From: an uncultured Erysipelotrichaceae bacterium
Lineage (GTDB): Bacteria; Bacillota_I; Bacilli_A; Erysipelotrichales; Erysipelotrichaceae
Reading direction: 5' to 3'
NCBI GenBank assembly: GCA_900315065.1
Contig: OMXQ01000018.1
Coordinates: 1 to 36,181, forward strand
Length of the DNA stretch: 36,181 nt
Position 1 is the stretch's first letter. The number at the start of each line of letters is the position of its first letter. Shown piece by piece: positions 19,892-26,388 of this stretch. A model generated the notes under the pieces. The model did not search any database, was not told the DNA's origin, and saw nothing but the letters and a program-made list of their open reading frames with translations. The position numbers and the translations under genes are program-made.

Positions 19892-20464
19892 TCAGATCAC
19901 AAACTGCAGAACCATGATACCAAGCAGATACAAAGAGAAGAAAATCATCAAAGCTCCGCCGATAATACCGCAGGTACGCTGATAGCTTGCGCCACGATTA
20001 TACCCGATTTTCAAAGCCAGGAAAACTGCCGCAAAGGAAACCGCGAAGGCAAGACCGACAGTAGCCGGATAATTGATATTCAATAAAGAGAAGCCGGCAC
20101 CGACAAAAAGATTATCAACGCTTGTATACAAAGCCAGTCTGACCAGCTGGTGATAAGTAAAGTCACGGTCCAGCTTTTCTTCAAATGTGCTCTTCTTGAA
20201 AGACTTGGTCATCAGCCAGATGCCGACCGAAAGAATGACAAGACACGCAATGGCAATTTCCAATCTTCCATCCGGTACAAACCCCAGGAAAGCATTGCTC
20301 AGACCGTAGCCGAATGTCAGCATCATTACCGAAATCACGGCATACAACAGAGAATACCCTGCCATTTTTTTACCACTGAGGTTTCTCAGCTGGGCGCCCT
20401 TCTGCATCATGACAATAAAACTATCCAGAGAAAGACCTATATAAATCAGACATGCCTGCAGCAT
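19892..20464 (-). CDS. MntP-like (DUF204) manganese/cation exporter
   Basis: 190 residues, six predicted membrane helices in two three-helix repeats. Each repeat carries a membrane aspartate in a family-like motif: GLSLDSFIVMMQKG in helix 1 and YTSVDNLFVGAGFSL at the start of the second repeat. MntP proteins export Mn2+. The match is clear at motif level but the glycine-rich positions differ, so another divalent cation is possible. The ATG at 20464 has AAAGGAG ten bases upstream. I looked for the yybP-ykoY manganese riboswitch upstream and found none. The partner TetR gene follows directly. Confidence 0.75.
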   Translation of the reverse strand: MLQACLIYIGLSLDSFIVMMQKGAQLRNLSGKKMAGYSLLYAVISVMMLTFGYGLSNAFLGFVPDGRLEIAIACLVILSVGIWLMTKSFKKSTFEEKLDRDFTYHQLVRLALYTSVDNLFVGAGFSLLNINYPATVGLAFAVSFAAVFLALKIGYNRGASYQRTCGIIGGALMIFFSLYLLGIMVLQFVI

Positions 20465-20560
20465 ATTTCAATCACTCCTTTAACAAACACAATTATTGTA
20501 TCGGCTCTGCTTTATAAAACACCTATACAAATATCCGCAAGTGTTAATGCTTTCCGCGCA

Positions 20561-20590
20561 AAAAGAAAAAAGACCTGCTGGCACAAGTCT
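20561..20590 (-). terminator. Intrinsic terminator upstream of the MntP-like gene
   Basis: AGACTTG and CAGGTCT pair (7 bp, one G-T) around TGCCAG, followed by TTTTTTCTTTTT on the minus strand. It ends the pentapeptide transcript and/or the candidate small RNA. Confidence 0.75.
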
Positions 20591-20650
20591 CATTTCCTGT
20601 TTTTTACTGCTGGGAGGGAAAGAAATTATTTTCTTTGTCTTTCTTAAGAC
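20565..20650 (-). ncRNA. Candidate C-rich small RNA (or pentapeptide-gene 3' UTR)
   Basis: On the minus strand a TATATT box (20662-20657) is followed by about 85 bases without a gene, ending in an intrinsic terminator. The stretch folds as a small hairpin (GTCTT/AAGAC), a second (AAAGAAA/TTTCTTT), then an unpaired CCCTCCC, then the terminator stem. A single-stranded C-rich run between hairpins is typical of Gram-positive regulatory RNAs that pair with ribosome sites. Upstream lie three copies of TTCACA on the minus strand (20710-20705, 20699-20694, 20692-20687), two of them 11 bases apart. It could equally be an untranslated tail of the pentapeptide gene. Confidence 0.35.
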
Positions 20651-20737
20651 ACATTTAATATACCGGAAGCGTGTGTTCGATTTATGTGTGAATTGTGAAA
20701 GATTTGTGAAAACTGAAAAAACACAGAAAATAACGAA

Positions 20738-21358
20738 TTATTTTACGTGAATGCCAAGCAGAGCAGACAATTCTACTGCCTGGGAAGCATTGACATAAAC
20801 TCCGCGCAAAGAAGAAGGCGTAACTGAAATTCCTTCAATCTCACTTGTGGATAAATCGATATTACGCATGGAAGTTTCCAGCCATTCACTGGCAGAAAGA
20901 TCACAATGATCAAACAGCAAAGTATTCTGCTTAACCTGTATAAAGCCGCTTTCATTCATAGCGCAGTCATCAAACAATGTCTTCTTCAAAGTCGAAGCAG
21001 AAAAGTTTCCATAAGCAATCTGGCAATTTTCAAATGTCACATCCTGAAAAGAACAATTTTCAAATACAGCGCCTGTCAATCTGCAGCCTTTGAATACTAC
21101 TCTCCGCAATGCACTTTCATGAAAATCCGCATTTGAGAAATCACAATGATCAAAAGTCGTATCTGCAAACTCACTTCTGTCTCCTCTGTCATTCATCGTG
21201 ACATTGGTAAACGTACATTCAAAGAAAGAATGGGAATCAAGTCTTTCCGCTTTTTCTTCCCTGAATTCACAATTGTCGCTTCTGTCCTTCTTCATTTCCA
21301 AGGCAATCCTGGCCGGGTGCATCTCTTCTTCAATCTCTGGTTTTCTGATTTTTTCCAT
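20738..21358 (-). CDS. Pentapeptide-repeat protein
   Basis: 206 residues. After a charged N-terminus (about 1-45) the protein is built of consecutive five-residue units with a central Phe or Leu (for example FADTTFDHCDFSNADFHESA, VFENCSFQDVTFENC), giving a right-handed quadrilateral beta helix to about residue 190. Several Cys and His occur in the repeats (FDHCD, FENC), as is common in this family. Members include gyrase-protecting Qnr/MfpA proteins, but most have no known role and nothing here points to gyrase. There is no signal peptide, so it is cytosolic. No strong ribosome site precedes the ATG. It is not close to an obvious partner gene. Confidence 0.85.
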   Translation of the reverse strand: MEKIRKPEIEEEMHPARIALEMKKDRSDNCEFREEKAERLDSHSFFECTFTNVTMNDRGDRSEFADTTFDHCDFSNADFHESALRRVVFKGCRLTGAVFENCSFQDVTFENCQIAYGNFSASTLKKTLFDDCAMNESGFIQVKQNTLLFDHCDLSASEWLETSMRNIDLSTSEIEGISVTPSSLRGVYVNASQAVELSALLGIHVK

Positions 21359-25693: not shown

Positions 25694-25730
25694 AAAAAAG
25701 CCGTCAATTGGAAATTTTCCAATGACGACT
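25694..25730 (-). terminator. T-box attenuator terminator
   Basis: AGTCGTCATTGGAAAA pairs with TTTCCAATTGACGGCT (one bulge), followed by TTTTTT on the minus strand. It is the alternative fold to the T-box antiterminator. Confidence 0.9.
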
Positions 25731-25931
25731 TATATCGCGGTACCACATTGGTTATCAGTAAAACATTTACTGATCACTCATCTTATCCGTAACGTGGACG
25801 ATGCGTTCTTTCCTATGTCTTCAGAAAGACTTCTCCCAGATGCGCTTCCCAATGACTTTCCCCATCAGACTTCCACTCTGTTCTGACTCGCTTGCGGTTC
25901 CCTCACCGGTACTCTTCTGTTCAATGAATTT
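25694..25931 (-). promoter_or_regulatory. T-box riboswitch controlling the amino-acid ABC/M14 operon
   Basis: The minus strand carries TGTGGTACCGCGA (about 25747-25735), the T-box core with the UGGUACC bulge that pairs with an uncharged tRNA CCA end; its variable base U asks for discriminator A. Stem I is readable. CAGA/TCTG closes the specifier loop, CCGGTGA/TCATTGG lies above it, and TCAGA/TCTGA closes the apical part holding AGTGGAAG. The 3' side of the specifier loop is GAAGCGCA. Reading CGC gives arginine, reading GCG gives alanine. Specifiers usually end in C, which favours arginine. The competing terminator follows. Uncharged tRNA would turn the operon on. Confidence 0.93.
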
Positions 25932-25937
25932 ACCAGT

Positions 25938-26311: not shown

Positions 26312-26388
26312 GTCCCCGTAGCTCAGCTGGATAGAGCGTCCGCCTCCTAAGCGGAAGGTCGTGGGTTCGAATCTCATCGGGGACGCCA
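26312..26388 (+). tRNA. tRNA-Arg (anticodon CCU)
   Basis: Full cloverleaf by eye. Acceptor GTCCCCG/CGGGGAC, D arm GCTC…GAGC, anticodon stem TCCGC/GCGGA around loop CTCCTAA with anticodon CCT (reads AGG), T arm with TTCGAAT, discriminator G and encoded CCA. Length is 77 bases. Downstream a short weak hairpin with a T-rich stretch (about 26413-26435) may end it. Confidence 0.97.

Follow-up and report, generated by a model that had tools for sequence, protein, structure and literature searches.

The window, by which we mean the whole stretch of 36,181 nucleotides from an uncultured Erysipelotrichaceae bacterium that was analysed, carries on its minus strand, from about 20711 to 20566, a gene for a small RNA (sRNA) of approximately 85 nt with its own promoter and terminator. 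We take it, with a probability of roughly three in four, for a standalone, trans-acting sRNA gene representing a new family in the Erysipelotrichaceae, of a kind already known, whose expression and action are predicted. Comparison between genomes supports an independent, C-rich sRNA gene, complementary to the Shine–Dalgarno (SD) sequence, with a promoter of the activator type. The features of the region are as follows.

20738 to 21358, minus strand: upstream neighbour, outside the RNA, encoding a pentapeptide-repeat protein (cluster upstream in 30 of 58 loci)
20694 to 20711, minus strand: promoter half-sites 1 and 2, TTTCACA-N4-TTTCACA, with an 11-bp period (exact match)
20672 to 20689, minus strand: promoter half-sites 3 (nnACATA) and 4 (nnACACA) in the same 11-bp register (comparison of 71 promoters)
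20657 to 20662, minus strand: -10 element TATATT (columns 49-54 of the comparison, with T in 68, A in 64, T in 52 and the last T in 66 of 71)
20566 to 20650, minus strand: predicted small RNA of about 85 nt, its start placed from the -10 element and its end from the T-run
20637 to 20650, minus strand: 5' hairpin GTCTTAAGAAAGAC, upstream of the core (minimum free energy below 0 in 46 of 60 homologues)
20612 to 20627, minus strand: core AATTTCTTTCCCTCCC, complementary to the ribosome-binding site GGGAGGGAAAGAAAT (all 16 aligned sequences agree at T32-C40 and C42)
20560 to 20591, minus strand: intrinsic terminator with T-run (terminator scan and covariation)
19892 to 20464, minus strand: downstream neighbour, outside the RNA, encoding an MntP-like efflux pump (cluster downstream in 18 of 55 loci)

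Conservation and structure of the RNA

Taken by itself, the fold of the 96-nt piece was moderately unusual (minimum free energy -20.2, z -2.15, with 5 of 200 shuffles equally good) and offers moderate evidence, so it is conservation that decides whether the gene is real. A DNA similarity search of 60 genomes located the region in 17, the own genome among them, and every one belongs to a single genus; one of these matches (L017) lacked the RNA core and was rejected as a copy of the RNA. A covariance model built from an alignment of 16 sequences, and run with stricter filters on the genus and the order, matched 62 of the 70 genus genomes (E no higher than 0.01) and 94 of the 294 genomes of the order, in 23 of 78 genera, the wider matches being mostly weak. 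Most genomes of the genus gave one strong match and some gave two to four, the second often weak; the genome of the window gave one. The preliminary description had proposed a candidate C-rich small RNA, which is thereby borne out far beyond chance: the region whose conservation was in question is conserved, and the claim stands. Judged by sequence comparison, this conservation removes the doubt that the gene arose by chance.

Beyond the genus, other Erysipelotrichaceae genera also had clear copies with the same promoter (G241, G185 and G101, and also G214, G245 and G210 among the stretches fetched), and some further model matches, among them those in G039, G273, G300 and G144, lack such a promoter by eye and may be due to chance. 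One contig of another genus (L092, in G241) bears two model matches about 1.5 kb apart, of which only the first has the full box, and a divergent copy (L189) was seen in G090, a genome without a model match. Additionally, an exact-pattern scan of a collection of species genomes, from which the genome of the window or one very close to it may be missing, returned 23 stretches, 21 of them with the whole gene and the other two without the promoter. The 21 are recorded as Erysipelotrichaceae, Solobacterium or Lactimicrobium, mostly uncultured metagenome-assembled genomes together with the isolate NK3D112 and Lactimicrobium massiliense. Pattern matches in Phascolarctobacterium and Clostridiales records (L390, L394), where the promoter is absent, were taken as chance.

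At the gathering score, none of 4227 Rfam families matched the RNA of the window, and scans of five loci with E up to 1 gave two matches far below that score, neither of them on the RNA. The same scan placed a T-box leader at 25718-25933 (minus strand), close to a tRNA gene at 26312-26385 (plus strand). A small protein encoded within the RNA was rejected: closed reading frames of at least 10 codons starting with ATG, GTG or TTG occurred in 16 of 60 RNAs, the longest having 18 codons, and none was common to the set.

For the structure, 60 usable RNAs were retained from the 71 promoters described below, 11 being dropped by rules on strand, T-run and 5' length; their median length was 74.5 nt under the assumed start. 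The solid terminator of the preliminary description was confirmed as a stem of 9 pairs followed by a T-run in the window copy. Its stem covaries, with two-sided changes in 7 of 13 pairs and 25 such cells against a mean of 9.8 in shuffles, none of 500 shuffles reaching this value, although related sequences can exceed shuffles even without structure; sliding the pairing destroys the signal. From the 16-row alignment, RNAalifold recovered only the terminator; the 5' hairpin, which drifts, was assessed sequence by sequence. In 46 of 60 homologues, the part before the core folds with an energy below 0 by means of differing stems such as GUC/GAC, AUCAAA/UUUGAU, CAAGC/GCUUG and GUCCU/AGGAU, the mean z against base shuffles being -3.05, whereas 14 of 60 have no 5' hairpin under the assumed start. 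Of the two small hairpins described earlier within some 85 bases, the 5' one thus has counterparts, while the second, AAGAAAATAATTTCTT, is not common among the homologues by eye and would partly mask UUUCU.

Between the 5' hairpin and the terminator lies a conserved open stretch, UUUCUUUCCCYCC, complementary to a ribosome site; reverse-complementing its core, UUUCUUUCCC(Y)CC, gives GGAGGGAAAGAAA, the SD sequence plus spacer. CCCTCCC occurs once in the window with both strands counted. It had been described as unpaired, which is so when the 96-nt piece is folded to minimum energy, whereas the C-rich stretch becomes partly paired once 100 further bases are folded along. Across the 60 homologues, the mean unpaired probability of the core was 0.65, compared with 0.55 with shuffled flanks (Wilcoxon p 2.6e-5); the window copy is less open (0.43). 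Two types of core were noted among the homologues, CCCUCC(C) and CCCCC, the latter with other terminator loops, and their targets may differ from each other.

Candidate targets

According to the proposed mechanism, UUUCUUUCCCYCC, held between the 5' hairpin and the terminator, would pair with mRNAs that carry GGAGGGAAA(GAAA) as their ribosome site and would thereby stop their translation, the mRNAs of oligopeptide- and sugar-binding lipoproteins being among the possible targets. Trans-acting repression at the SD sequence is a prediction from this complementarity and from target statistics. The arrangement GGAGGGAAA-N(0-7)-ATG occurred 8 times in the own genome against 1 time for a reversed control and, among the matches listed, was present in 70 of 70 genomes.

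A set of 78 candidate loci was assembled (8 own, 30 chosen automatically and 40 chosen by hand on sequence, favouring GGAGGGAAAG), 60 of which had a reading frame of at least 60 amino acids, with 54 left after removal of duplicates. Lipoproteins, called by an ad hoc sequence pattern, made up 19 of these 54 genes compared with 5 of 156 genes with a GGAGG SD sequence (odds ratio 16, p 6e-9), the background coming from about 800 kb of two genomes (G061, G000) and the focal genes from many. After clustering, 14 of 46 clusters were lipoprotein-like by manual count, and the lipoprotein-like genes include four related proteins read as oligopeptide-binding. For example, an oligopeptide-binding lipoprotein with both the promoter box and the matching ribosome site was found in G069, where the sRNA is present, and in G027, which is 80% complete and has no model match.

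The enrichment has close to an even chance of reflecting a general ribosome-site style of binding proteins instead of targeting by the sRNA, a reading that concerns the target list only and is compatible with the gene as described above. Genomes without a model match for the sRNA had a lipoprotein share (4 of 9) no lower than that of genomes with a match (15 of 45, which differs from the background at p 1.5e-7), and this split speaks against targeting unless divergent copies are present in the genomes without a match, as is the case in G090. In the two background genomes, lipoproteins as a class did not pair better by median energy, and this line of support was discarded. Among the genes that pair best with the core (top 3, 5 and 10%) there were 1, 3 and 5 of 20 lipoproteins (p 0.47, 0.08 and 0.044), a weak within-genome effect that also favours the ribosome-site style, whereas the same tops for pairing with the 16S tail held 0, 0 and 1 of 20, the single lipoprotein in the top tenth arguing against it. 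Likewise, among background genes with a GGAGG SD sequence, lipoproteins numbered 3 of 139 if the next base was not G and 2 of 17 if it was, both small numbers, which does not favour a general style. On balance, we place the idea that lipoprotein mRNAs are targeted by the sRNA somewhat below even odds.

Promoter, candidate regulator and neighbouring genes

The promoter was compared in 93 loci (L018-L110), which gave 71 distinct promoters with a first box scoring at least 10 of 14, the 22 left out being near-duplicates or model matches without such a box. Columns 3 and 14, which belong to the first box used to select the loci, had C in all 71 promoters; columns 25 and 36 had it in 69 and 64 of 71 and, like columns 49-54 with their consensus TATnAT, played no part in the selection. 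The TATATT box noticed earlier holds as a -10-like element at 20662-20657, conserved across the 71 promoters, although a consensus promoter scan of the window listed no promoter at this site. Three copies of TTCACA lie upstream of the RNA on the minus strand, the first two 11 bp apart (20711-20693), as had been pointed out; the comparison extends them to four half-sites spaced by 11 bp. The window contains a single TTCACA-N5-TTCACA on its two strands together, and nothing resembling TTGACA was found 17 bp before the -10 element in the 71 promoters. Direct repeats with an 11-bp period upstream of a -10 element and no -35 box are the mark of OmpR/PhoB-type promoters, and this layout would suit an activator of that family replacing -35 recognition. 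Known sites of the family are direct repeats, and PhoP of Mycobacterium tuberculosis requires 7-bp motifs with a 4-bp spacer (excerpts of PMC4832192).

A search for two half-sites in the 70 genomes gave 94 matches compared with 9 for a reversed control. The other places with two half-sites (49 loci, L148-L195 and L199) were heterogeneous, mostly without half-sites 3 and 4 by eye, and were dropped as a common class; L171 and L189 among the two-half-site loci are further copies of the RNA. Some TTTCACAA boxes of two half-sites stand ahead of the same genes in more than one genome, namely those of a dtd-like deacylase, a rex-like repressor and an ATP-cone reductase, named from sequence (L150, L177 and L162 in G062, G084 and G071; L158 and L166 in G031 and G073; L167 and L188 in G073 and G089). 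These genes are possible further members of the regulon.

Regarding the regulator, the own genome has ten matches to the OmpR-type DNA-binding domain, and 25 such matches of five further genomes were compared with them. One response regulator of the OmpR/PhoB type, L119, was alone among the own-genome regulators compared in having reciprocal best matches in all of G012, G060, G066 and G101, and was also the best match of L203 of G093; its type, taken at an identity of at least 70%, is present in 62 of the 70 genomes of the genus. By sequence, its closest solved relatives are RegX3, PrrA and M. tuberculosis PhoP. The promoter of the L119 type itself carries TTCACA-N5-TTCACA: in the 30 closest of the 62 loci, scored against a threshold of at least 10 of 12, all 30 reached the threshold and 29 scored 11 or more, with the box ending 34-52 bp before the start, while shuffled promoters reached a score of 10 in 22 of 9000 cases. 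The L119-type promoters of G012 and G101 carry the box too; among 28 other regulator loci, 2 reached a score of 10, with other sequences (TTCATA.., TTGACA..). We propose that the L119-type regulator would bind the four half-sites 11 bp apart, taking over the role of the -35 box, and would also bind its own promoter. The kinase encoded next to it has HisKA and HATPase_c domains only; the signal may be envelope or secretion stress, by analogy only, envelope stress being suggested by LhrC.

On sequence matches, the co-occurrence of the L119 type and the sRNA is imperfect. In G034 (89% complete), the sRNA is present and no L119-type match was found at 1e-60; in G060, G066, G081 and G092, the best match to L119 is 54-60% identical; and G027, G029, G063, G082 and G090 have the L119 type and no model match for the sRNA. 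No box is present in the L119-type promoters of G060 and G066, though both genomes have the sRNA with its own. G034, G060 and G066 thus do not fit a simple rule of L119 autoregulation, which leaves some room, albeit limited, for the same sRNA being activated by another regulator, such as the L122 type, whose second match of about 50-57% identity in most genomes of the genus makes it about as widespread as the L119 type. However, the three L122-type promoters examined (L122, L208 and L215) are without the box.

Activation of the sRNA by the phosphate regulator PhoB/PhoP, as implied by the "PhoP-type" repeats of the preliminary description, is less likely still. The class of regulator, OmpR/PhoB, was well chosen and the geometry of the box is compatible with PhoB/PhoP; additionally, pst promoters of G025 and G002 have repeats of the TTTTACAT/TTTAACA type 11 bp apart. 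Nevertheless, PstB passed the cut-off in 15 of 70 genomes, compared with 62 of 70 for the sRNA, although absence of PstB does not prove absence of PhoB, and the promoters examined, three of pstS and one of phoU from as few as three genomes, all lacked TTTCACA. The pst promoters did not share the box of the sRNA, nor did Pst co-occur with it, and phosphate control was disfavoured on these two grounds. The own pstS and phoU promoters show TTTAAC/TTAACA-like elements without clear 11-bp spacing. The pst promoter repeats (L197, 3950-4180, in G025; L198, 1990-2230, in G002) are likely a PHO box distinct from that of the sRNA.

The neighbouring genes bear on whether the RNA is a gene of its own. The RNA could be a regulated leader, acting as attenuator or riboswitch for the mntP-like gene that follows it, given that the MntP-like cluster is the commonest one downstream (18 of 55 loci, also in another genus, L094 and L098) and that a terminator sits between the promoter and this gene. 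Yet the 55 downstream reading frames in range, called mechanically, with some single-member clusters that may not be genes, fall into 23 similarity clusters; 37 of them belong to clusters other than the MntP-like one and 9 lie on the opposite strand. A second downstream cluster, with 11 members, was read from sequence as a carboxylesterase. The manganese riboswitch yybP-ykoY is typically found upstream of mntP; here no Rfam match was obtained upstream of the mntP-like gene, so we regard that element as absent. In addition, the invariant part of the RNA is complementary to a ribosome site, which likewise counts against a leader. Because the neighbours change, the RNA is not regarded as a leader, a role we consider very unlikely. 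That the RNA is simply the 3' end and terminator of the pentapeptide transcript is harder still to credit, since that cluster lies directly upstream in 30 of 58 loci but another reading frame does so in 28, and the box and -10-like element are conserved ahead of the RNA in the 71 promoters. To judge from these arrangements, the sRNA outlives changes of its neighbours on both sides, and pentapeptide gene, sRNA and mntP is the likely ancestral order.

Comparison with known systems

In a limited literature search, which took in excerpts of PMC11109978 and PMC12786226, no sRNA of such a kind was found described in this bacterial family, and the analysis supplies, for a family of gut and rumen bacteria that has received little study, a gene together with candidates for its regulator and its class of targets. 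A wider picture, possible though on the whole doubtful, is that an autoregulated two-component system drives the sRNA through an unusual promoter of four half-sites in a family-wide stress circuit of the Erysipelotrichaceae, in which the sRNA would shut down the synthesis of lipoproteins (binding proteins), some targets would also be under the same regulator (feed-forward), and the origin would be independent of LhrC and the csRNAs.

The preliminary description had likened the RNA to RsaE, which uses a C-rich motif to bind the SD sequence (excerpt of PMC4132741). The present RNA shares such a motif with RsaE/RoxS and other UCCC sRNAs of Bacillota, although the Rfam scans gave no match, and LhrC of Listeria and the csRNAs of streptococci are closer analogues because they are controlled by two-component systems. 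By analogy, the RNA may work like either of them. LhrC1-5 and Rli22 of Listeria monocytogenes are driven by the two-component system LisRK, and the family acts on the ribosome sites of mRNAs including oppA; LhrC1-5, Rli22 and Rli33-1 are multicopy and have two stem-loops with a UCCC-bearing single strand between them (excerpts of PMC4132741 and PMC8079631). LhrC has UCCC in loop A and in the single strand, and LhrC1-5 also in the terminator loop (excerpt of PMC8079631), whereas the present RNA has one C-rich stretch, which in the CCCUCCC type holds UCCC twice, and by eye none of the 60 RNAs has UCCC in its 5' part. LhrC is multicopy; most genomes here have one strong match and some two to four. 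The analysis brought out no relationship to LhrC in sequence or box.

The csRNAs likewise have direct repeats 11 bp apart before the -10 element, followed by a stem-loop, an unpaired stretch complementary to the SD sequence and start codon, and a terminator stem-loop; their CiaR box consists of two half-sites, TTTAAG-N5-TTTAAG (excerpts of PMC3091779), compared with four half-sites of the TTTCACA type here. In the predicted structure, an unpaired SD-complementary region does lie between two stem-loops (5' hairpin in 46 of 60), while the box NTTAAG-N5-TTTAAG is not found before the -10 element. As for the promoter, Mcr7 of M. tuberculosis is also under an OmpR/PhoB regulator, PhoP (excerpt of PMC4038636), whose sites, 7-bp repeats with a 4-bp spacer and the motif TCACAGC (excerpt of PMC4832192), have the same geometry as the box of the sRNA. 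Since it departs from a defining feature of each, the placement of UCCC in the one and the box in the other, the RNA is placed in neither LhrC nor the csRNAs; if the proposed control and action are right, two-component control of C-rich anti-SD RNAs would have arisen repeatedly in Bacillota.
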